Shown: piece by piece, positions 3,044 through 12,710 of the stretch
How the letters are laid out: every line of letters starts with the position of its first letter
Position numbering within the stretch: position 1 is the stretch's first letter
Source of the DNA: Streptomyces naganishii JCM 4654
GTDB lineage: Bacteria > Actinomycetota > Actinomycetes > Streptomycetales > Streptomycetaceae
Reading direction: 5' to 3'
NCBI RefSeq assembly: GCF_014650575.1
Contig: NZ_BMVF01000001.1
Location: 496,001 to 560,000, forward strand
DNA length: 64,000 nt
Notes under the pieces: generated by a model
The model's input: only the letters and a program-made list of their open reading frames with translations
The model's database searches: none
Told to the model about the DNA's origin: nothing
Program-made: the position numbers and the translations under genes

Positions 3044-3765
3044 GGCTCCGGCTGCCCGTGGAACGCCCGACGAGGCCGCCGACCGGATACAAGATCGCCC
3101 ACCCGGTGCTGTCCCACGACGGCACCCGGGCCGGTTTCACCGGAGTGTCGCTCGGCGGCGCGCTGCCGTACGGCGTCCTCGCCGACGCGGCCTGCGTCTA
3201 CGGCCGCAGGCACCGCCCGCCCGCCCGGCTGTGCGACTGCGGCTTCCACTGCGTGCACGAACGCGCCGCCGCCCAGGCGCTGCTGTGCACCGCCGAGCAC
3301 CGCACGGCCGTGCTGCTGGAGGTCTCCGTCCTCGGCGCCTACATCCGCTTCGAGCGCGGCTTCCGCTACGCCCGCCAGCGGGTGCGCACGGCCACCGTCG
3401 GCCCCTGCGCCTGCGGCGCGCCCGCCGCCGCGCTCGCCGACGCGGGCTGGGGCAGGCCGGGCCGCCTGGCCCTCGCGCCGTCGTGCGCGGGCTGCGTGCG
3501 CGGCCGTACGTCCCTGACCCTCGCCGCCTTCGCGCGGCTGGCCGGGGAGGGACTGCGGGTGACGGCCGCCGGCCGGGCGGCGTGGCCCGCGGCCGGTCCG
3601 GACGCGCCCGGCGGACCGGCGGACGCGGGAGCCGCCGGCCCCGAGGGGCTGGGGGTGCCCGAGCTCGCCGCCGAGGCCGCCCTGTTGCAGGCCCGGCTCG
3701 ACTGGTTCCAGACACAGCTGGCCCGGCTCGGCGAGCGGGGACCGGGCGGACCCGGCCAGGGGTAG
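3040..3765 (+). CDS. Conserved actinobacterial protein with Cys pairs
   Basis: I do not recognise a named family. The 241-residue protein starts MRLRLPVERP at an ATG overlapping the previous stop. Residues about 1-170 are globular and contain Cys-rich segments (CDCGFHC; CACGAP; and a CAGC further on), suggesting a zinc or disulfide-held fold. A Gly/Ala/Pro linker follows, then a short C-terminal helix with LLQARLDWFQTQLARL that could form a coiled coil. The coupling to the small acidic protein suggests a shared role. Confidence 0.6.
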   Translation: MRLRLPVERPTRPPTGYKIAHPVLSHDGTRAGFTGVSLGGALPYGVLADAACVYGRRHRPPARLCDCGFHCVHERAAAQALLCTAEHRTAVLLEVSVLGAYIRFERGFRYARQRVRTATVGPCACGAPAAALADAGWGRPGRLALAPSCAGCVRGRTSLTLAAFARLAGEGLRVTAAGRAAWPAAGPDAPGGPADAGAAGPEGLGVPELAAEAALLQARLDWFQTQLARLGERGPGGPGQG

Positions 3766-3818
3766 TGCCGTGCGGTGCGGGTACCCGGGGGTTCCGGACC
3801 GAGAGGAGGCGGGACACC

Positions 3819-4286
3819 GTGACCGGCACCATTGACGCCAGGCCCGTGCGCGACGAACTCCACCCGGTGGGCGACCACCCGGTGGGCCGCCGCCCGGCGG
3901 GCGAACGTTCGGTGGGCGAACTCGTCCACCAGGCGACCGAACAGCTCTCCGACCTCGTACGGCAGGAGATGACCCTCGCCCGGGTCGAGCTGGCCCAGAA
4001 GGGGCGGCGGATGGGGCGGGGCGGCGGAATGCTCGGCGCTGCCGGAGCCATCGGCTACGTCGGCCTCATAGCGCTCGCCGCCACGGTCATCGCGGCGATC
4101 TCGCTGGCGCTGCCCGTGTGGGCGGCCGCGCTCATCGTGACCGGCGCTCTGTTCGCGATCGCCGGTCTGCTGGCCCTGGCCGGCCGCGCCCAGCTGCGCC
4201 GCGCCACACCGCCCAAGCCCGAGGCGACGCTCGGCAGCGTCAGGGCGGACGTCGAGGAGATCAGGGAAAGGGCGCACCACCGATGA
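3819..4286 (+). CDS. Phage-holin-like/ACT-holin family membrane protein (DUF1469 type)
   Basis: A 155-residue protein from a GTG start preceded by GAGAGGAGG. A charged, helical N-terminal part (about 30-65, ELVHQATEQLSDLVRQEMTLAR) leads into two hydrophobic segments at about 72-97 and 99-122, then a cytosolic tail. This is the layout of actinobacterial phage-holin superfamily (Phage_holin_3_6) proteins, which are usually linked to envelope stress rather than lysis. It overlaps the DUF3618 gene by 4 nt (ATGA), the standard partner of this family. Confidence 0.75.
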   Translation: MTGTIDARPVRDELHPVGDHPVGRRPAGERSVGELVHQATEQLSDLVRQEMTLARVELAQKGRRMGRGGGMLGAAGAIGYVGLIALAATVIAAISLALPVWAAALIVTGALFAIAGLLALAGRAQLRRATPPKPEATLGSVRADVEEIRERAHHR

Positions 4287-4774
4287 CCGACAGGACACAG
4301 GGGGCGGACGGCGGGTCCGCACGGGCCACCGGCGCCAAGGGCCCCGACGAACTCAGGCAGCAGATAGAGCAGACCAGGAGCCGGCTCGGCGACACCGTCG
4401 AGGAACTGGCGGCGAAGGCCGACGTCAAGGGCCGCGCCAAGGCCCGGGCGGCCGACCTCAGGGACAAGGCCGGTGCGATGACGGTCCAGCTGCGCAGCAG
4501 CGCCGTGCACGCCGGGCACCGCGCCCAGGAGAAGGCGTCCCAGGCCGGGCACCGGGCGCAGGAGAAGGCGTCCCACGCCGGGCACGGCGTCCAGGACCGG
4601 GTGGCGCAGGCGGGGCACACCGTCGAGCACTCCGTGCCGCACAGCGTGAACGACGCGGTCGCCGTCTGCCGCCGCAACCCGCGGTCCCTGATGATCGCGG
4701 GCGCGGCGGGGGCCGTGCTGGTGACGGCGGGCGTGCTCCTGCTGCGCCGCGGCCGGCAGAGCCGTCTCTGCTGA
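4283..4774 (+). CDS. DUF3618-family membrane protein
   Basis: A 163-residue protein. Residues about 20-45 carry the DUF3618 signature (ELRQQIEQTRSRLGDTVEEL). An alanine-rich helical region follows. Residues about 77-121 hold four 11-residue repeats beginning AGH (for example AGHRAQEKASQ), and one transmembrane helix lies at about 136-154. The start overlaps the holin-like gene, so the pair is co-translated. The repeats suggest an extended amphipathic helix next to the membrane. The family's function is not established. The next feature downstream is the 5-bp target duplication of a transposon, 33 bp past the stop. Confidence 0.75.
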   Translation: MTDRTQGADGGSARATGAKGPDELRQQIEQTRSRLGDTVEELAAKADVKGRAKARAADLRDKAGAMTVQLRSSAVHAGHRAQEKASQAGHRAQEKASHAGHGVQDRVAQAGHTVEHSVPHSVNDAVAVCRRNPRSLMIAGAAGAVLVTAGVLLLRRGRQSRLC

Positions 4775-4807
4775 CGCCGGACGCGCGCGAGAGGTCCCGC
4801 GAGCCGC

Positions 4808-4812
4808 TTCCA
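4808..4812. repeat. 5-bp target site duplication, left copy (TTCCA)
   Basis: TTCCA lies directly outside the left terminal inverted repeat, and the same five bases follow the right one at 9342-9346. A 5-bp duplication is the hallmark of Tn3-family transposition. Confidence 0.88.
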
Positions 4813-4859
4813 GGGGCATGACCCAGATGCGCCAGAAACCCGCCACGGGATGATCTTGG
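4813..4859. repeat. Left terminal inverted repeat of the Tn3-like element
   Basis: Reading inward it starts GGGGCATGACCCAGATGCGC and ends at 4859, one base before the resolvase stop codon. Against the right repeat it differs at three of 47 positions (1, 4 and 17). The GGGG start is typical of Tn3-family ends. Its inner part also contains CCCG-TGG-CGGG, which may serve as a terminator stem for the resolvase. Confidence 0.9.
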
Positions 4860-5766
4860 TTACTGACCGAGGGAACTGACGCGGTTCGCGTACTCGCGGC
4901 GGCCCTTGCGCTGTGCCGGAATGGCTCCGGCGTCGTCCAGGTTCTGGCAACGGTTGAGGAGTTGACGGTGGAGCGCGGGCATGGCGGTGACGCGCAGGGT
5001 GTAGCCCGTGCCGCGCCTACGGCCTGGCCGTGGTCGAGCACGGCCCGTTCGGTATCGTCCAGTTCGGTGGCGCGCAGGAAGTCTGCGACCTTGCCAGGCA
5101 TGTCAAGGGTGATGGGCAGCTCCGGGGCCGGGACGCCCGAGTCCGCGGCCGTGTGCTCGGGCAGGAGGTCGGCGACGGCGGTGCGGATGGCGCCGCGGCT
5201 GACGCCGTGGTCGCGGCGAGGGCGGCGATGGAGTGGCCCTCCAGGTACGCGGTGCGCGCGGCGCCGGCCCTGTCGGCCGCCACGGCGGGGCGGCGCACGC
5301 CTTTGCTGCCCTTGGCCTCGGCGGCTCGCAGTCCGTCGTAGGTCAGCTCGCGCTGGAGGTCGCGTTGGAGTTCGCCGGAGGCGGCGAGGGTCTGCACCAT
5401 GAACTTCACGGTGGACAGCAGCTCGCCGGTGCGCGGATGGCGGGCGGTGAGGTCCATCGCGGAGAACGCGCCGTCGTGGATACGCAGCGCCACCTGGTCG
5501 CGGTGGAGGACGTCGAGCACATCGAGGATGTGGCCGGTGCCGCGCACGAGGCGGAACATCTCGGAGACGTGCACAGTGTCGCCCGGCCGCGCGTAGGTGA
5601 GCAGTTCGCGGAACTTCGGCCGCTGAAGCGGGTGGAGGCGGCTGGAGGTTCCCGGGTCCTCCTCGAAGACGACTGGGTCCTCAATGCCGGCCTCATCCAG
5701 GACGAGGTTCTGCCGGGCGGTCGACTGCTGGTCGGTCGAGACCCGCTTGTAGACCAGGTTCGCCAC
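4860..5766 (-). pseudogene. tnpR: Serine recombinase (Tn3 resolvase type), two frameshifts
   Basis: From the GTG at 5764-5766 the frame gives LVYKRVSTDQQSTARQN, the resolvase/invertase N-terminus with catalytic Ser10. The catalytic domain continues to about residue 150. The frame breaks near 5220, inside the C-terminal helix-turn-helix (HSIAALA, then RDHGVSRGAIRTAV in the next frame). It breaks again near 5020-5035, after LDHGQA, and resumes as GYTLRVTAMPALHRQLLNRC. Each break equals one missing base. Restoring both gives about 302 residues ending at a TAA at 4860-4862. It would have resolved transposition cointegrates; it is now inactive unless these are sequencing errors. Confidence 0.82.
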
Positions 5767-6251
5767 TCGCGGGCCCCTTCCATACGGAGGATCGGACCCT
5801 ATCTGTCGTCAAACCCTGTCAGTAATCACCATCGGGTCTGATTGGATTCGCGCTGCCGTGAACCCCCGGATTGCACGGGTTCATTGGACGCGTCGCCTGC
5901 CTGTCGGCAAACGATCGTTTGCGAACACCGTTCAGCCGGGCGAGGAGGCCGGAGACCGGCGGAACAGGGTGGGGGGCGAAAGTTCGTGGGCGCCGGTCAC
6001 GTCCCCAGCGCGGCAGGCCCGGCGGGCGGCACGCTGGTCGACATGGCGACACCGGCCGATGGCCTGGCGACGCTGGGGGACCTGGCCGGCAGTCATCGCC
6101 GAAGGCCGACCGCCCCGACGTGCTGACCGGCAGCGATTGGCCGGGGGCGAGTTCTGCTCTCCGTTTCGGCTTCGGCCGTGTCTCGGCTGACCCTATGCGT
6201 ACATGCCCGGCCGGGCCGCCCCGGGCCGCGGGGTCCCTGAGTGCCCTCCGC
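5767..6251. other. Gene-free stretch upstream of the resolvase, probable res region
   Basis: No plausible gene was seen in these 485 bp. Tn3-type res sites sit upstream of tnpR, which places the expected recombination site here. Dyads are present: TGAACCC/GGGTTCA around an 11-base loop (about 5860-5883) and a perfect 16-bp palindrome at 5907-5922. TGTC direct repeats lie near 5810-5820. From about 5930 to 6250 nothing stands out. Confidence 0.4.
5907..5922. promoter_or_regulatory. Perfect 16-bp palindrome in the putative res region
   Basis: GCAAACGATCGTTTGC is identical to its reverse complement. It lies 141 bp upstream of the resolvase start. It could be a resolvase-binding subsite or crossover point, or an operator. 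No regulator was matched to it. Confidence 0.45.
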
Positions 6252-6668
6252 TCAGGCGGCGTCGAACGCCTCGGCGACGGCCAGCGTGTCCTCGTACAGG
6301 TGCATGCGAACGATTCGGCCGTCCTCGATCGCCAGGTGCAGGGCCACCGGTGTGGTGAACTCCTTGCCGGTGGGTGCGGCGGTGTGTGTGAAGGCCGCCA
6401 GCAGCACCACGTCACCACCGTCGACGATGAAGCGCTCCAGCACGACCTTGCTCTGGCCGTGCGCGAAGTGCTGCCACATGGTGGTGAAGTACGGCGCGAC
6501 CTCCTCCTGGCGGGTGCGGCGCCCGGTCCAGGGCAGTGCGTCACTGCCGGGGACGTGCCAGTCGATCTCCTCGGAGAACAGTTCCTGGATGCCGTCGGGG
6601 TCCTGCTGGCCGAGGCGCTCCAGGAACTTCTCGGCCACGGTCCGCGAGGTCTGAGTGTCTGTTGTCAT
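6252..6668 (-). CDS. SnoaL-like / NTF2-fold ketosteroid-isomerase-related protein
   Basis: A 138-residue protein with the NTF2-fold pattern of SnoaL-like proteins: an N-terminal helix (AEKFLERLGQQDPDGIQELF), then EEIDWHVPG, then TTMWQHF, and a terminal strand reading EDGRIVRMHLYEDTLAVAEAF. The family covers small isomerases, hydrolases and ligand binders, so the substrate cannot be told. AAGGAC lies upstream of the ATG. It is cargo of the Tn3-like element and the only intact coding sequence between the resolvase and the dehydrogenase remnants. Confidence 0.78.
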   Translation of the reverse strand: MTTDTQTSRTVAEKFLERLGQQDPDGIQELFSEEIDWHVPGSDALPWTGRRTRQEEVAPYFTTMWQHFAHGQSKVVLERFIVDGGDVVLLAAFTHTAAPTGKEFTTPVALHLAIEDGRIVRMHLYEDTLAVAEAFDAA

Positions 6669-6715
6669 CGTCCTTGTCCTTTGTCTCTTCGTCTCTTGAG
6701 GGTGTCGGTCGGGCC

Positions 6716-7015
6716 TCAGCCCTGGAACAGGAAGTGCTTGCCGCTCAGCGGCCCGCCGAGCTGCATGAGCGCCCCGCCTTCGCGCAGTGCGCCAAGGTCG
6801 ACCGGCGCGAACCCGAATTCGGTCAGCAGCCGTGTGAAGGGGGCCTTGGCGCTCTCGTCGTCACCGGCGAGGAAGACGACCTGGTTGCCGTCCTGGTGCC
6901 GGGGTTCGGGAGCCATATAGGTGGCGAACATGGCGTTGAAGGCCTTGATCAGCGTGACGCCGGGCAGTTGCTGGGCGACCCACTCGCTGCCGGTCAGCGG
7001 CGAGACGTCGGCAAT
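6716..7015 (-). pseudogene. C-terminal remnant of an F420/NADP-dependent reductase-like protein
   Basis: About 100 codons in one frame read TGSEWVAQQLPGVTLIKAFN, then ATYMAP, HQDGNQVVFLAGDDESAKAP and LGGPLSGKHFLFQG. This is the C-terminal half of the NADP oxidoreductase coenzyme-F420-dependent family (F420_oxidored). The N-terminal dinucleotide-binding Rossmann motif is absent. Upstream, the same strand carries a dehydrogenase N-terminus in another frame, so a deletion has joined two unrelated genes. It is unlikely to make a working enzyme. Confidence 0.62.
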
Positions 7016-7389
7016 ACGGTGCCAGTGCCACTGGTCCGCGCCGCCGAGATGGCGCTCGGCAGCTCGGCGAGCGGGTAGGCGGCATGAACGGCGAGAAGGT
7101 GTGGATGCTGCGCGGCGATCTGGAGGACCGCTACCCGATCGCCGACACGGAGCGCCGGCACCGATGGACCCACCGCAGTCACCACGCCCGCCGCCTCGGT
7201 GCCCAGCCTGCGCCCCGCGGATCCGTCCGGCAGGCCGGTCTCCGTCGCGACCAGATCGCCGCGGTGGACGGGGGAGATGCCGACACGCACTTGGATTTCG
7301 TCGGCCCGAGGGGCCGGCGCCTCCGGCCGGTCCTCGATGTGTGCGACGGCTGCCGCATCGCCCGCCCGGTAGTGGACCACGCTCTTCAT
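6994..7389 (-). pseudogene. Truncated zinc-type/quinone oxidoreductase (MDR) N-terminus
   Basis: Starting at an ATG with AAGGAG upstream, the frame reads MKSVVHYRAG and then the GroES-like domain of medium-chain dehydrogenases (VRVGISPVHRGDLVATETG; GTEAAGVVTAVGPSV; LRVGDRVAV, to about residue 88). A normal member has about 320 residues with a GxGxxG cofactor domain. Here the match to the N-terminus ends after about 90 residues, a possible scrap of the C-terminus follows (AAYPLAEL), and the open frame stops at 131 codons. It is the 5' half of a deletion fusion with the F420-type remnant. Confidence 0.65.
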
Positions 7390-7496
7390 GACGCACTCCT
7401 TGTTGTGTCGAAGCCATTGCCTGGGTGAGACGGTCGCAAGTACGCGGCTCGGACGCCCGGGAGCGTCGAATGCGTCCCGCCTCGCCGATTCGCCGC

Positions 7497-8249
7497 CTAG
7501 AGCTGTGTGACGCCGCCGTCGACGAGCAGTTCCGCGCCGGTGGTGAAACTGCTTTGGTCGCTGGCCAGGTAGAGGGCGGCAGCGGCGATCTCGTCGGGAC
7601 GGCCGAAGCGGCCGAGCGGGGTCGGCGGGGCGGGCTCGGCCGCGGTGGGCCGGTCGTCGCGCGGAAAAGCGGCGACGAGCTCGGCCAGGCCCGGTGTCTC
7701 GACGGGGCCGGGGGTGAGGGCGTTGACGCGGATTCCGCGGCCGGCCAGCTCAGCGGCCCAGGTGCGTGCGAGGCTGCGGACCGCGGCCTTGGTGGCGGCG
7801 TAGACGCCCAGGCCCGGGGTGGCCAGCAGAGCCGAGTTGGAAGAGATCAGCGTCACCGAGGCGCCGGCCGTCAGCAGCGGCAGCGCCTTCTGGACAGTGA
7901 AGACCGTGCCCTTGAAATTGATCGAGGCAGTGCGGTCGTACTCTTCCTCGGTGATCGTGCCGAGCGGGCTGTATTCCCCGACGCCGGCGTTGGCCACCAC
8001 AATGTCCAGGCGGCCGCTGCGGTTCGTGATCTCGGCGAAGACCCGGTCGAGGTCGCCGAGATCGGAGGCATCGGCCTGGATGGCGATGCCCAGGGCTCCG
8101 ACCTGTGCGACGGCGGCGTCGAGCTCGGTTTTGCGGCGCCCGGTCAGGTAGACGGTGGCGCCCTCGGCGGCGAAACGGCGGGCGATCGCCAGGCCGATGC
8201 CGCTGGAGGCGCCGGTGACGAGGGCGGTCTTGTCTTCCAGTTGTCCCAT
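7497..8249 (-). CDS. SDR-family oxidoreductase
   Basis: A complete 250-residue classical short-chain dehydrogenase. It has TGASSGIG at 12-19 for NAD(P) binding, NAG at 87-89, Ser137/139 with Tyr150 and Lys154 as the catalytic set, and a C-terminal TTGAELLVDGG. ADAS after strand 3 does not settle cofactor choice. The ATG at 8249 is preferred because TTGGAG sits 6 nt upstream. The promoter holds the dyad GTAAC-N7-GTTAC at 8271-8287, also found before the neighbouring Rrf2 gene, so it is probably a target of that regulator. The substrate is unknown; a quinone or carbonyl compound is plausible. Confidence 0.85.
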   Translation of the reverse strand: MGQLEDKTALVTGASSGIGLAIARRFAAEGATVYLTGRRKTELDAAVAQVGALGIAIQADASDLGDLDRVFAEITNRSGRLDIVVANAGVGEYSPLGTITEEEYDRTASINFKGTVFTVQKALPLLTAGASVTLISSNSALLATPGLGVYAATKAAVRSLARTWAAELAGRGIRVNALTPGPVETPGLAELVAAFPRDDRPTAAEPAPPTPLGRFGRPDEIAAAALYLASDQSSFTTGAELLVDGGVTQL

Positions 8250-8270
8250 GAGATTCTCCAATTCCTTAGT

Positions 8271-8287
8271 GTAACTATTTTGGTTAC
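8271..8287. promoter_or_regulatory. Candidate Rrf2 operator before the SDR gene
   Basis: GTAAC-TATTTTG-GTTAC, a 5-bp dyad with a 7-base spacer, lies 22 bp upstream of the SDR start. The same GTAAC-N7-GTTAC arrangement is found at 8797-8813 before the Rrf2 gene. Confidence 0.6.
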
Positions 8288-8342
8288 ATCGGCGGCCGTG
8301 GAATACGACCCCCCTCGATCAAGGGAAGTCGACGGTTCGAGT

Positions 8343-8774
8343 TCAGGCGGCTTTCAAGACGTCCCGCAGCACGTCCTCCAGCGTAGTCTTGGCCAGCTCC
8401 CTGCGCAGGGCGGCCTCCACGTCGTCGTACACGGCGGCCATCGCCGGCCCGATGCCGTGACCCACAATGCACTCGGGGTCCGGTGTCGCGCGATGCAAGG
8501 CGAAGACCGGTCCCGGTTCGATCGCCTGGTAGACGTCGAGCAGAGTGATCGCCGCCAGGTCCCGCGCGAGCATCCAGCCCGCCCCCGCCCCCCGCCGTGA
8601 ATCGGCCAGGCCGGCCTTGCTCAGCTTGGCCAGCAGGCGGCGGATCACCACCGGGTTGGTGTTGACGCTCGTCGCGATCTGCTCGGAGGTGGCGACCTCG
8701 TGGCCACGCCGCTGATACAGCCCGATCCATGTCAGGGCGTGCGCCGCAATGGTCAGTCTGCTGTTGGCACTCAC
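8343..8774 (-). CDS. Rrf2-family transcriptional regulator, cluster-less type
   Basis: A 143-residue Rrf2 protein. The winged helix covers about 1-70 (LTIAAHALTWIGLY; ATSEQIATSVNTNPVVIRRL; GAGAGWMLARDL). A dimerisation helix and a C-terminal helix follow. Fe-S members such as NsrR, IscR and RsrR carry three spaced cysteines; here there is only Cys102, so it resembles the YwnA/HypR-like group that senses redox or disulfide stress. The GTG at 8772-8774 has GAGGAG upstream. The matched dyads before this gene and the SDR gene suggest autoregulation and repression of the cargo. Confidence 0.82.
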   Translation of the reverse strand: MSANSRLTIAAHALTWIGLYQRRGHEVATSEQIATSVNTNPVVIRRLLAKLSKAGLADSRRGAGAGWMLARDLAAITLLDVYQAIEPGPVFALHRATPDPECIVGHGIGPAMAAVYDDVEAALRRELAKTTLEDVLRDVLKAA

Positions 8775-8796
8775 GTCGGACTCCTCAGTTCTAGTC

Positions 8797-8813
8797 GTAA
8801 CGATAGTTGTTAC
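8797..8813. promoter_or_regulatory. Candidate Rrf2 operator before its own gene
   Basis: GTAAC-GATAGTT-GTTAC sits 23-39 bp upstream of the Rrf2 start. Half-sites and spacing equal those at 8271-8287 before the SDR gene, although the spacers differ. Confidence 0.6.
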
Positions 8814-8847
8814 AACTGCATGCGGCAAGTCCTGCGGGGCTGGCCGG

Positions 8848-8919
8848 GCCGACCTCGTCAAGGAGCACGCCACCCGCGAGCACACCATCGCCGAGTTCTT
8901 CTCCGTCAGCCGGGAGCTG
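8848..8919 (+). pseudogene. Possible fragment of a serine-recombinase helix-turn-helix
   Basis: One plus-strand frame reads VKEHATREHTIAEFFSVSR, which resembles the C-terminal helix-turn-helix of Tn3 resolvases, and then loses similarity exactly where the transposase remnant begins on the other strand. It is only about 24 codons, so this is weak evidence. If real, it is the scar of a second resolvase or of a rearrangement inside the element. Confidence 0.3.
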
Positions 8920-9211
8920 GACGGTGCGGATGACGCGGCCGACCTCGCGGAAGGCCGTGTATGTCGCGTTCTTGCGTGAGCCCGCCCGCAGGCGCCGCAG
9001 CGGCAGCGTGGAGGAGATGGCGCCCTCGCGCACGGAGACGGCCACCCGCATCAGGTGCCGGAGGCGGCTGGGCCGGCAGGTGCTCGTCACAGCCAGCACG
9101 AGCGGCGGCCCACTCGACCTCGTCACGGCTCGGCGAGAAGAACAAGTGCAGCTCGTGCGCGGTGATCAGCCGCTTGAACCGCGGATACGCGGTCCTCTCG
9201 ATCGAGGTCAC
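8920..9211 (-). pseudogene. tnpA: Tn3-family transposase, gutted remnant
   Basis: From a GTG at 9209-9211 the frame reads TSIERTAYPRFKRLITAHEL and LFFSPSRDEVEWAA, the N-terminal DUF4158 domain of Tn3 transposases. After about 45 codons (near 9066-9077) another frame takes over: LMRVAVSVREGAISSTLPLR, SRKNATYTAFREVGRVIRTV, which is the late part of the same protein. Everything between, including most of the catalytic core, is deleted, and the C-terminus is cut off at 8920. Full-length family members have about 1,000 residues. The gene begins about 84 bp inside the right inverted repeat, the usual position. Confidence 0.75.
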
Positions 9212-9294
9212 AGCCCACCGCGCCCCGGACGACATCCAACGTCACCACCAACGACGCTGAGCTGAACGGGTGACGGGTGTGCCCCCCCAGGCCC

Positions 9295-9341
9295 CCAAGA
9301 TCATCCCGTGGCGGGTTTCTGGCGTATCTGGGTCATGGCCG
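9295..9341. repeat. Right terminal inverted repeat of the Tn3-like element
   Basis: The reverse complement starts CGGCCATGACCCAGATACGC and matches the left repeat at 44 of 47 positions. The first base (C for G), the fourth (C for G) and the seventeenth (A for G) differ. The changes at the tip may reduce transposase recognition. Confidence 0.9.
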
Positions 9342-9346
9342 TTCCA
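9342..9346. repeat. 5-bp target site duplication, right copy (TTCCA)
   Basis: Directly follows the right inverted repeat and equals the left copy at 4808-4812. Confidence 0.88.
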
Positions 9347-9371
9347 TCGCCGAGGTGGGGGCGGCTCCGTG

Positions 9372-9399
9372 TTGGTTCCGGCGGCCGCCTGCCGAATAC
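9372..9399 (+). promoter_or_regulatory. Possible promoter of the ArsR/SRPBCC pair
   Basis: TTGGTT (9372-9377) and AATACT (9394-9399) are spaced by 16 bp, just outside the transposon. A start near 9406 would leave a short leader before the GTG at 9445. The motif match is modest. Confidence 0.3.
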
Positions 9400-9444
9400 T
9401 CAATGCGTCTGGACAAAAAAAGTTTTCGGTGGGACGCTGGGCGC

Positions 9445-10062
9445 GTGCTGGACGTCACCGTGATCGAGGATCCCGAAGCCGCCGCCGTCTGCCTGGACCC
9501 CGTCCGGGTCCGGCTGCTCGCCGAGCTGGGCGGCGGCCCGGCGTCGGCCGCCATGCTGGCCGGGAAGGTGGGCCTGCCCCGGCAGAAGGTGAACTACCAC
9601 CTCAAGGCGCTGGAGCGGGTCGGCCTGGTCGAGCTCGCCGGCGAGCGCCGCAAGGGCAACGTGAACGAGCGGCTGATGCGGGCGACGGCGGCGTCGTACG
9701 TCATTTCGCCGCTGGCGCTCGCCGCGGTGCAGCCGGACCCGGACCGCTTCCGCGACCAGTTGTCCGCGCGCTGGCTGCTCGCGCTCGGCGCGCGCCTGGT
9801 GCGGGACGTCGGCACGCTGATCACCGGCGCGGCCAGGGCCCGCAAGCGGCTGGCAACGTACGCGCTGGACGGCGAGGTGCGCTTCGCCTCCGCCGCCGAC
9901 CGGGCCGCGTTCGTCCAGGAGCTGACGGCCGGTGTCGGCGCGCTGATCCGCAAGTACGACGCGCCCGGCGCCGAGGGCGGACGCGACCACCGGGTCGTCC
10001 TCGCCCTGCACCCCACGGTCCGGGAGGAGAGCCCGGCCGCCCCCGAAACCGACCAGAGCTGA
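9445..10062 (+). CDS. ArsR-type winged-helix transcriptional regulator
   Basis: A 205-residue regulator. An N-terminal winged helix (about 5-80) reads PVRVRLLAELGGG, then GLPRQKVNYHLKALERVGLVE, followed by an alpha-helical effector domain. No metal-binding cysteine pair is visible, so it is not a classical arsenic or metal sensor. The GTG at 9445 gives the family's usual N-terminus (LDVTVIEDPEAAAV); an ATG at 9403 in the same frame would add 14 residues. The SRPBCC gene starts 15 bp after its stop, the common pairing for this family, and is probably its target and partner. Confidence 0.75.
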   Translation: MLDVTVIEDPEAAAVCLDPVRVRLLAELGGGPASAAMLAGKVGLPRQKVNYHLKALERVGLVELAGERRKGNVNERLMRATAASYVISPLALAAVQPDPDRFRDQLSARWLLALGARLVRDVGTLITGAARARKRLATYALDGEVRFASAADRAAFVQELTAGVGALIRKYDAPGAEGGRDHRVVLALHPTVREESPAAPETDQS

Positions 10063-10076
10063 GCAGGAGCCCCGCC

Positions 10077-10817
10077 ATGTCCAAGGAATTCGAGATCGTC
10101 CGCGAGTTCGAGGTCGACGCCACGCCCGAGGAGGTGTGGGAGGCGGTCACCGCCGGGACCGGCGGGTACCTGTGGCCGATGGAGCCGCCCGAGCCCAAGG
10201 CGGGCGGCCGGGGGCCGTTCGGGTCCACCGTCACCGCCTGGGACCCGCCGCACCGCTACACCAACCGCAGCGAGGACACCGGCATGCCGGCCCAGCCGCT
10301 CAACCAGCTCGACCACACCATCGAGCCGCGCGACGGGGGACGCCGGGCCTGGGTGCGGTACGTGCACAGCGGCATCTTCACCGACGACTGGGACAACCAG
10401 TACGACGGCGCGAACCGGCACACCGACTTCTACCTGCACACCCTGCGTGAGTACCTGACCCACTTCGCGCCGCGCCCGGTCGCGTTCTCGACCCTGAACG
10501 GCCCGGAGGCCTCCACCGCCCCCGACGCCTTCGCCGCCGTGGGCCGGGCCCTCGGGCTGACCGACGGCGACGCCGTGGGAGCGCGGGTGAGCGTCCGGGG
10601 GCCGCGGCCCTTCGAGGCGGTGCTCGACTACCGCGACGAGTACTTCATCGGCCTGCGCACCGACGAGGCCCTGATCCGCTTCTTCGGCCGCAACCACTGG
10701 TCCGCCCCGATCGGCCTCAGCGTCCACGACTTCGCCCAGGACGCGGACGCCGAGGCCACCGGGGCCGCCTGGCAGGCCTGGCTGACCTCGGCCTTCTCCA
10801 CCGGCTCCCGCTCCTGA
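10077..10817 (+). CDS. SRPBCC (AHSA1-like) domain protein
   Basis: A 246-residue protein. The N-terminal half (about 1-145) is a START/AHSA1-type helix-grip fold: FEIVREFEVDATPEEVWEAV, GPFGSTVTAWDPPHRY, and a helix RHTDFYLHTLREYLTHF. The C-terminal 90 residues form a second small alpha/beta domain. Such proteins bind hydrophobic ligands in a cavity, but the ligand is unknown. It is co-transcribed with the ArsR-type gene. It converges on the secreted nuclease gene across a strong bidirectional hairpin. Confidence 0.75.
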   Translation: MSKEFEIVREFEVDATPEEVWEAVTAGTGGYLWPMEPPEPKAGGRGPFGSTVTAWDPPHRYTNRSEDTGMPAQPLNQLDHTIEPRDGGRRAWVRYVHSGIFTDDWDNQYDGANRHTDFYLHTLREYLTHFAPRPVAFSTLNGPEASTAPDAFAAVGRALGLTDGDAVGARVSVRGPRPFEAVLDYRDEYFIGLRTDEALIRFFGRNHWSAPIGLSVHDFAQDADAEATGAAWQAWLTSAFSTGSRS

Positions 10818-10825
10818 AACAGCGG

Positions 10826-10862
10826 CCGGCCCGGCCCGGGGGTGCTCCCGCGGCCGGGCCGG
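10826..10862. terminator. Bidirectional terminator hairpin
   Basis: An 11-bp perfect stem, CCGGCCCGGCC paired with GGCCGGGCCGG (10852-10862), around a 15-base loop. It lies between the convergent SRPBCC and nuclease genes. No T-run follows, as is usual in Streptomyces. Confidence 0.7.
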
Positions 10863-10874
10863 GTGTGTCCTCGG

Positions 10875-12710
10875 CTACGGGTGGAAGCGCAGGACCTGCG
10901 GGTCGTGGTCGCTGATCTGGTCGTGGAACTCCGAGTTGATGTGGACGCTGTCGTAGTCGAAGTCGCAGGCCCGGCGGATCGAGGGGCTGATGAGGATCTG
11001 GTCCAGGACCTGCTGGTTGCCCTGGTAGTCGTAGGTGTAGCGCTCGCTCTTCGGCAGGGACTTGACCGCCGACCAGAGTTCGCCGTCGCCCTCCAGGATC
11101 TTCGCGGTGCCGGAGAACTCGAAGTCGTTCATGTCGCCGAGCGCGATGACGTCCGCGTTCTTCTGGACCTTCAGGATGTCCTTGACGAAGGAGTTCACCT
11201 CGGCGGCCTGGAGGTGGCGCTGCACCTCCGAGCCGCGCGTCGGGGGCTGGTACTGCGAGGTCAGCCCCTGGTCGCCGCCCTTGGAGGCGAAGTGGTTGGC
11301 GATCACGAAGACCGTCCGCCCGCGGAAGACGAACTCACCGGCCAGCGGCTTGCGGCTGGACTTCCAGGCGGCGCTCGTGGGGTCGATCCGTCCGGGGGAG
11401 AAGGTGAGGGCCGCCCTGCCGTGCTCCCTGGTGACGCCGACCGCGCTGGTCGAGTCGCCGCCGGGCCGGTCGGTGAAGGACACCCGAGCGGGGTTGAACA
11501 GGAACCCCTGGCGGATGTTGCCGCCGGGCTCGCCGCCGTCCTGGTCGTTGACCGGGTCGATCGAGCGCCACTCGTACCTCGGGCCGCCGGCCGCGACGAT
11601 CGCGTCGATGAGCTTGTTCACCGTCACGCTCGCGTCGACCGTGCCGTCGTCCGTGGCGCCGTTGTCGTCCTGGATCTCCTCCAGGGACACGATGTCGGGC
11701 GACTGGAGGTTGTTCACGATCGCGGAGGCGTGCGCGTCGAACGTCGAGTCGGACGGGTCGAGGTTCTCGACGTTGTACGTGGCCACCGCGAGCTCGCCGT
11801 GCGACTGCTTGCGGGTGGTCTCCCGCTGCAGACCCGCGCTCTGGAGCGTGCCCATGTGGTCCGCGACCAGGGTGTACCCGCCGTACTGGTTGTAGTCCAG
11901 CGGGCCGCTGGTGGCGCCGGCGAGGGTGTCGCCGACGTTCGCCACCGGGAAGCCGGCGGTGGGGCCGAGCGACTGGATCTGGATGCGGCCGGTGTTCTGG
12001 GAGTCGTAGGAGCCGTACACCGTGCCGCCGCGCCGGCCGGCGTGCTCGTGCGGCTTCACCGTGACCCACAGCTCGCTGTAGGGGTCGGTGGCGGTGACCA
12101 CGCGGGCGTCGGCGACCTGGACGTTCATGCCCTCCAGGGACTCGTAGTAGTCCAGGGCGTACTTCGACGGCTGGAGGGTCAGCCCGTTGACCGAGCCGTT
12201 CGCGGCGGCGTCCCCGGCGGGGGCGTACGCGGCCGGGACCGACTGGGCGTCGAGGACGACCGGCGCCGGGACCGCGTTGCCGCTGGAGAGCACGGTGACC
12301 GCCGGCTTGGTGATCTCCGTGACCGACTGGTTGCCGGAGGAGGCGCCGCCGGGGACGTACTCCGAGACGGTGCCGGTGACCGTGACCGAGTCGCCCACCG
12401 CGACCTTCGGGGCGGAGCTGGTGAAGACGAAGACGCCCTCACTCGTGGCCGGGTCGGCGTCCGGGTTCGGGTCCTGCATCCAGAAGCCCTTGGACGAGCC
12501 GTAGGTGCGCACGCCGGTGACGATTCCGGCCACGTCCGCGACCTTCTGGCCGGCGTACGGGGATATCCGGGTCGTGCCCTGGATGTCGTGGATGCGCACG
12601 GAGTCCGCGTGCGCGGGCGTGGGGAGGACGATCGTCTGGACGACCGCCGCCGCGGAACAGACGGCGGCGACGGTCAGCGCGGCGAGACGCGCGGAAGACT
12701 TGCTCGGCAA
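10875..12710 (-). CDS. Secreted endonuclease/exonuclease/phosphatase-family nuclease
   Basis: A 611-residue exported protein. A Sec signal peptide (about 1-35, ending TPAHA) is followed by an OB-fold-type region (about 36-290) like that of ExeM/NucH extracellular nucleases. The EEP catalytic domain occupies about 310-611: NVENLDP, VSLEEIQDDNG, ANHFASKGG, ALGDMNDFE, LDQILIS and SDHDPQV supply the metal and active-site residues. It should degrade DNA or nucleotides outside the cell, perhaps for phosphate. The TTG at 12708-12710 is chosen because GGAGGG lies 7 nt upstream and it places the signal peptide at the N-terminus. Confidence 0.85.
   Translation of the reverse strand: MPSKSSARLAALTVAAVCSAAAVVQTIVLPTPAHADSVRIHDIQGTTRISPYAGQKVADVAGIVTGVRTYGSSKGFWMQDPNPDADPATSEGVFVFTSSAPKVAVGDSVTVTGTVSEYVPGGASSGNQSVTEITKPAVTVLSSGNAVPAPVVLDAQSVPAAYAPAGDAAANGSVNGLTLQPSKYALDYYESLEGMNVQVADARVVTATDPYSELWVTVKPHEHAGRRGGTVYGSYDSQNTGRIQIQSLGPTAGFPVANVGDTLAGATSGPLDYNQYGGYTLVADHMGTLQSAGLQRETTRKQSHGELAVATYNVENLDPSDSTFDAHASAIVNNLQSPDIVSLEEIQDDNGATDDGTVDASVTVNKLIDAIVAAGGPRYEWRSIDPVNDQDGGEPGGNIRQGFLFNPARVSFTDRPGGDSTSAVGVTREHGRAALTFSPGRIDPTSAAWKSSRKPLAGEFVFRGRTVFVIANHFASKGGDQGLTSQYQPPTRGSEVQRHLQAAEVNSFVKDILKVQKNADVIALGDMNDFEFSGTAKILEGDGELWSAVKSLPKSERYTYDYQGNQQVLDQILISPSIRRACDFDYDSVHINSEFHDQISDHDPQVLRFHP

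Follow-up and report, generated by a model that had tools for sequence, protein, structure and literature searches.

Transposons of the Tn3 family are best known for antibiotic- and metal-resistance cargo; replicative transposition via a cointegrate and target immunity are further marks of the family. Defective members that retain clean ends are frequent, and the one described here is therefore unsurprising in itself; its cargo, conserved operators and crossover-point junctions may make it of interest to specialists. It lies in a 64,000-nt stretch of the Streptomyces naganishii JCM 4654 genome (contig NZ_BMVF01000001.1, positions 496,001-560,000), the whole of which is referred to as the window. 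Among the closest described systems, Tn4556 from S. fradiae has 38-bp ends, and a C to G change at its left-end tip raised transposition five- to tenfold (PMC6403206). Non-autonomous derivatives such as the TIMEs, which are approximately 260 bp long, are known to move (PMC4133298). Serine resolvases cleave res site I at its central 2 bp (PMC12217951), and passenger exchange at the AT of this site has been described for Tn5501/TnTsp1 (PMC7157771). With regard to regulation, the Rrf2-type proteins SifR and YwnA are monothiol quinone sensors with the operator TGTAA-N9-TTACA, from which quinones release them, and HypR uses two cysteines (PMC9218516).

The window holds a non-autonomous Tn3-family element of 4,529 bp (positions 4813-9341) with all genes on the minus strand. 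It is best explained, at a probability of roughly 0.88, as a young derivative, arisen by deletion, of a Tn3-family transposon of Streptomyces with an electrophile-response cassette as its cargo.

Results

Ends, target duplication and empty site

The borders of the element are defined by the following features.

4808-4812: target-site duplication, left copy TTCCA (from the sequence and the empty site at loci L031 and L034)
4813-4859, plus strand: left terminal inverted repeat (GGGGCATGACC...), 44/47 versus the right end
9295-9341, minus strand: right terminal inverted repeat, tip CGGCCATG common to genome G181 (end comparison)
9342-9346: target-site duplication, right copy TTCCA (from the sequence)
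4798-4812, plus strand: 5' arm of a hairpin split by the insertion, the 3' arm resuming at 9347 (folding of the joined site)

The two 47-bp repeats match at 44 positions, with GGGG at the left and CGGC at the right tip, and represent the best and longest inverted pair within positions 3500-11000 (46 nt at 96%; runner-up 34 nt at 74%). In the whole 7.8-Mb genome the end sequence was found at only two places, the two ends of the element (control: 0), and the left-end sequence also terminates Tn3 elements in other Streptomyces. Long terminal inverted repeats starting with GGGG and a 5-bp target duplication, both typical of the Tn3 family, are thus present, the latter as TTCCA on both sides together with an empty site in two species. 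The defective Tn3 element that an earlier note had described from the letters alone, including repeats, match count and TTCCA flanks, was confirmed by end comparison and sequence, and its interpretation of the element is supported.

For the empty-site search, the flanks were joined with a single TTCCA and run against 393 Streptomyces genomes. As the earlier note had anticipated, an empty site was found in relatives: the stretch was uninterrupted in two genomes, G318 (82% identity over 1,205 nt) and G419 (79%), with L031 and L034 as empty-site loci. In both, the insertion point falls within a GC-rich hairpin between a DUF3618 gene and an ArsR-type gene. The joined window site folded at -29.1 kcal/mol and the homologous sites at -45.4 and -38.1 kcal/mol, with none of 200 shuffles as good, and the interrupted left side folded no better than its own shuffles. 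This folding pattern argues that the element split one arm of a conserved intergenic hairpin, which is probably a terminator. Inside the DUF3618 gene, a 33-nt (11-aa) unit is repeated three times in tandem (4508-4618); its count and sequence vary at the empty-site relatives.

Transposase and resolvase remnants

Both transposition genes are defective.

9064-9235, minus strand: tnpA fragment, codons 1-57 (partial DUF4158 match; alignment to L077)
8915-9062, minus strand: tnpA fragment, codons 887-936 (partial DDE_Tnp_Tn3 match; alignment to L077)
4867-5766, minus strand: tnpR pseudogene, serine recombinase (PF00239; alignment to an intact 308-aa sister)

Only codons 1-57 and 887-936 of 1,078 are kept in the window tnpA. 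In the full-length sister, the catalytic motifs begin at codons 751, 821 and 954; all three DDE motifs are lost here, in line with the gutted transposase reported before, and the window copy holds no TnpA with a DDE domain as found in autonomous family members. The sister TnpA scores 599.9 bits with NF033527 (cut-off 500), and the window element is therefore a derivative of the Tn3 family, not an autonomous member. In tnpR, the catalytic domain is in frame and the C-terminal part is frameshifted; alignment to the intact sister revealed a 9-bp in-frame deletion and two single-base deletions near 5216 and 5017, corresponding to the two frameshifts of the earlier note. The resolvase gene of a Tn3-type transposon is thus present but frameshifted, and the res site is predicted from conservation and a palindromic core only.

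The host genome contains no other Tn3 DDE domain, only the tnpA fragment of the element. Because of this, the element would be immobile unless a cognate TnpA enters the genome; mobilization in trans, considered in the earlier note, is possible in principle, though the host holds no other Tn3 transposase. The right end of the element may be weak, because its tip begins with C instead of G and a C to G change at the left-end tip of Tn4556 raised transposition.

Sister copies and deletion history

The end sequence is present in 13 of the 393 Streptomyces genomes. In G181 (contig C25, locus L077), an approximately 8.6-kb form comprises the cargo of the window plus a complete tnpA (1,078 aa), an alcohol dehydrogenase (ADH, 332 aa), an F420-type reductase and tnpR (308 aa), in the order right inverted repeat-tnpA-rrf2-sdr-adh-F420 reductase-snoaL-res-tnpR-left inverted repeat. 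A relative with these ends and an intact tnpA, as sought by the earlier note, thus exists, and its cargo is likewise the same. G417 harbors the cargo with a shortened tnpA and without the left end. A contig labelled Streptosporangium pseudovulgare, a member of another order, holds a fourth copy, which comprises the left end, tnpR, the cargo and a portion of tnpA; contamination of this assembly is possible. In G191 (contig C24), a pair of ends at a distance of 7.0 kb flanks an intact tnpA of 1,078 codons as well as genes for a serine recombinase, a cyanase and a carbonic anhydrase. The sister copies occupy unrelated sites.

The retained tnpA pieces are 97-99% identical to G181 and 89-93% to G191 at the DNA level, and most of the sequence shared with G181 is 96-99% identical (lowest value 91%). 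Relative to G181, the window copy has lost sequence by four deletions, two of them in and after tnpA (2,487 bp and 572 bp), one in frame within the ADH gene (approximately 606 bp), and one from the ADH end into the F420-type reductase gene (361 bp). Together, the deleted lengths (361 + 606 + 572 + 2487 bp) cover nearly all of the 4.1-kb size gap to the G181 form. From this comparison, the window copy derives from a G181-type form by a few discrete events rather than by long decay.

Two further observations concern related DNA. The 7.0-kb element of G191 (L081, 6163-13194) also carries a TetR regulator gene and a zinc-finger domain in its resolvase, and its flanks are alike at 4/5 duplicated bases; it is a probable cyanate-detoxification transposon. 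In Streptomyces sp. 1-11 (L098, 7411-10874), a like cargo, including parts of the ADH and F420-type reductase genes, is 98% identical to G181, with no Tn3 genes or ends nearby.

Age of the window copy

Sites private to the window were counted in a three-way MAFFT alignment using cargo columns only, as the tnpA pieces beside the deletions were misplaced. Of 2,987 aligned cargo sites, 67 (2.2%) were private. A divergence of 2.2% predicts about 2 changes in the 104 bp formed by the two ends and the two duplication copies; at most one private end change was observed (left end, position 17). G181 has the same two deviating bases at the right tip (CGGCC), which are therefore older than the window copy. 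By these counts the window copy is young, and its near-perfect ends are expected by chance. Of the two possibilities raised in the earlier note, a recent insertion suffices; selection that kept the ends while the enzymes decayed was dropped, because the neutral expectation already predicts about 2 changes and at most one is seen. The core gene dapD is only 92-93% identical to G181 and G417 versus the 97-99% of the tnpA pieces in G181, which suggests exchange of the element between species.

Cargo genes and predicted operators

Three intact genes and two remnants, the latter not recognized in the earlier note, constitute the cargo.

6252-6668, minus strand: SnoaL-like protein, intact, 138 aa (PF12680; sisters)
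6716-7011, minus strand: F420-type NADPH oxidoreductase remnant, C-terminal part only (intact gene in L077; 361-bp deletion)
7012-7389, minus strand: zinc-type ADH/quinone oxidoreductase remnant with the approximately 606-bp in-frame internal deletion (PF08240; L077 gene)
7497-8249, minus strand: short-chain dehydrogenase/reductase (SDR) oxidoreductase, intact, 250 aa from the ATG at 8249 (PF13561)
8271-8287: predicted operator GTAACTATTTTGGTTAC before the SDR gene (motif count and conservation)
8343-8774, minus strand: Rrf2-family regulator, intact, 143 aa, single Cys102 (PF02082)
8797-8813: predicted operator GTAACGATAGTTGTTAC before rrf2 (motif count and conservation)

The ratios of nonsynonymous to synonymous substitution rates (dN/dS) versus the sisters were 0.09-0.19 for SDR, 0.23-0.32 for Rrf2 and 0.55-0.60 for SnoaL, and the surviving cargo looks functional by its sequence. 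The earlier view of a small redox module unusual for this family was half right: the cargo is of this type, but other metabolic cassettes, such as cyanase plus carbonic anhydrase, are found in sisters bounded by these ends.

The closest solved structure to the Rrf2 protein is YwnA (1xd7). Cys102 of the Rrf2 protein, its single conserved cysteine before helix 5, was present in 26 of 26 orthologues; the local motif H-x3-P-D-P-E-C is one residue longer than HxxPNPxC. The sequence GTAAC-N7-GTTAC occurs exactly twice in the window, before sdr and before rrf2, with 0.17 occurrences expected by chance. It contains the conserved GTAA-N9-TTAC core of the SifR/YwnA operator, the outermost T/A pair not being required here. 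Of 25 related rrf2-sdr pairs, 24 carry both operators at nearly constant positions; the pairs come from Streptomyces, Saccharopolyspora, Actinopolyspora, Saccharothrix, Nocardiopsis and other genera. The operators were not found in a more distant pair (58% identity). Taken together, the cargo is likely an electrophile-induced reductase cassette with its own promoters and with predicted inducer and substrates, usable despite the loss of two enzymes; by analogy with SifR/YwnA, its genes probably respond to quinone-like toxic chemicals. A literature search on Rrf2, SDR and quinone in Streptomyces gave nothing useful. In S. olivoreticuli (L112, 8001-9731), two tandem SDR genes are 80% and 39% identical to the query, with no rrf2 match in that stretch.

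Mosaic left end and predicted res site

The left part of the element appears to differ in origin from most of the remainder.

4860-5265, minus strand: mosaic left segment, approximately 80-84% identical to G181 versus 96-99% for most of the rest (sliding identity; segment comparison)
5767-5922, minus strand: predicted res site 5' of tnpR (conservation among related transposons; limit of homology at the core)
5907-5922, minus strand: palindrome GCAAACGATCGTTTGC, taken as the site I core with AT crossover (homology stops at the core)

The leftmost approximately 450 bp diverge from G181 (82-84% identity), with a sharp break inside tnpR at element position ~455 and a divergence of only 1-2% beyond it. 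Decay as the cause of this ~20% divergence was rejected, since it stops so sharply; recombination with a sibling element appears to be the better reading. In the Streptosporangium copy, the divergent part reaches further into tnpR.

Related transposons have the palindrome CCTGTCGTCAAACGATCGTTTGACGACAGG upstream of tnpR, and where they differ in cargo their homology extends no further than its center. The predicted crossover is the AT of CAAACGATCGTTTG; in G417, foreign DNA follows immediately on CAAACGAT, and in the window the junction of cargo and backbone coincides with the crossover point of the predicted res site I. We infer that the palindrome represents site I and served for an exchange of cargo or ends, a modular swapping at res/tnpR, because the cargo meets the backbone at the predicted crossover and the left end is mosaic. 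In S. griseus BIG105 (L107, 14270-14300) and G417 (L080, 6750-6775), the predicted AT core is the exact point of attachment of unrelated DNA that has GAGCTCGCCAT in common, at L107 with a unit of ~27 bp between two half-sites; these junctions look like repeated site-specific recombination or a res-hunting insertion.

Discussion

In the proposed course of events, a cognate TnpA, either the element's own before the deletion or one acting in trans, would have cut both ends and placed the element by replicative transposition into the intergenic hairpin, generating the 5-bp duplication. The resolvase may have fused cargo and backbone at res site I. In its present form the copy is without the bulk of tnpA, two of the cargo enzymes and a tnpR that can be read through. 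In analogy to SifR/YwnA, Rrf2 would keep its own gene and the SDR gene repressed via the GTAA-N9-TTAC operators, and modification of Cys102 by a quinone-like electrophile would lift this repression. Since the genome offers no tnpA, the element would be fixed in place, and the regulated SDR/SnoaL cassette would remain usable to the host.

Several points weigh against this reading. The empty-site species are just 79-82% identical in that region, and their site reads CCCCA, not TTCCA. A fully intact redox-cargo transposon was not found among the genomes searched, and the G181 copy with tnpA and tnpR has a left tip damaged over 9 bp. A single copy is compatible with either order of insertion and tnpA deletion, and no strong constraint is visible in the dN/dS of SnoaL (0.55-0.60). 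One rival holds that the ends are under selection and that the element is an actively moving TIME-like unit, which lost its own TnpA and was then spread by that of a helper; intact ends and duplication next to a dead tnpA would fit this. Transposases of the helper type that match these ends are encoded in G191 and G181, and Tn3-derived non-autonomous elements do move (PMC4133298). We consider this improbable, as the genome holds a single copy and no helper, the 393 Streptomyces genomes yielded no further copy sharing its deletions, and the ends are kept no better than 2.2% divergence predicts. An old, vertically inherited island lost by other species, with incidental inverted repeats, is highly implausible: the cassette core is indeed found in many Streptomyces without Tn3 genes, and rrf2, sdr and snoaL lie apart from such genes in G003 and on S. 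cattleyicolor pSCAT, but an exact 5-bp duplication lies at the outer edge of Tn3-type ends, the hairpin is contiguous at the empty site in two species, and the sisters occupy other sites.

The control of the cargo is a separate matter. It could be a general detoxification or secondary-metabolism remnant without quinone control, its Rrf2 protein sensing, for example, hypochlorite or another electrophile. The NCBIfam HypR model NF041852 also scores, at 46 bits, below its cut-off of 180, but in place of the two cysteines of HypR (PMC9218516) there is one here, at the SifR position in all 26 orthologues. We regard this alternative as a serious contender, though the less probable one, and prefer the quinone-type cassette on a young deletion derivative. 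More tentatively, and rather doubtful in its full breadth, a Streptomyces Tn3 subfamily may deliver self-regulated stress cassettes: its serine resolvase would use the AT core of res site I to take up or swap cargo, which the transposon would carry between actinomycete orders, and each new copy would then be locked in place by loss of tnpA or of an end with the cassette kept.

The locus offers a dated and well-resolved case in which sisters and empty sites show how a passenger operon was picked up, moved and stranded. A further gain is a mobile candidate cassette for the quinone response of actinomycetes, for which operators and a sensor cysteine are predicted and which does not belong to the usual resistance cargo.

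Comparison with known systems

The closest relatives are the Streptomyces Tn3 elements of G181 (C25) and G191 (C24). Both share the 47-bp ends of the window element, and G181 also its cargo order; unlike the window copy, both keep the full 1,078-codon tnpA, and in G191 the place of the redox cassette is taken by cyanase and carbonic anhydrase genes. With TIMEs and other non-autonomous Tn3 derivatives (PMC4133298), the element has in common Tn3-type ends and a 5-bp duplication without transposase, and the TIME-RES TnpR (309 aa) is close in length to the 308 aa of the window's sister. It differs from these miniature elements, which are devoid of coding genes, by its size of 4.5 kb, three intact passenger genes and a broken tnpR. 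Tn4556 (PMC6403206) is likewise a Streptomyces element of the Tn3 class with long ends, a 5-bp duplication and an imperfect end tip; by its description, the only basis of this comparison, it has a tyrosine-type resolvase (PF00589) and methyltransferase and prenyl transferase cargo, whereas the window element has a serine recombinase (PF00239) and 47-bp rather than 38-bp ends. Tn4811 of the S. lividans plasmid SLP2, likewise a mobile region of Streptomyces, also encodes an SDR oxidoreductase together with a regulator. It was rejected as the closest known element: the SLP2 copy has an annotated IS5-type transposase and no homologous tnpA, tnpR or ends, and its SDR is only 32% identical. The Rrf2 protein of the window resembles the monothiol regulators SifR and YwnA (PMC9218516) in its single conserved cysteine and in the GTAA-N9-TTAC geometry; unlike them, it is the predicted regulator of an SDR cassette on a transposon.

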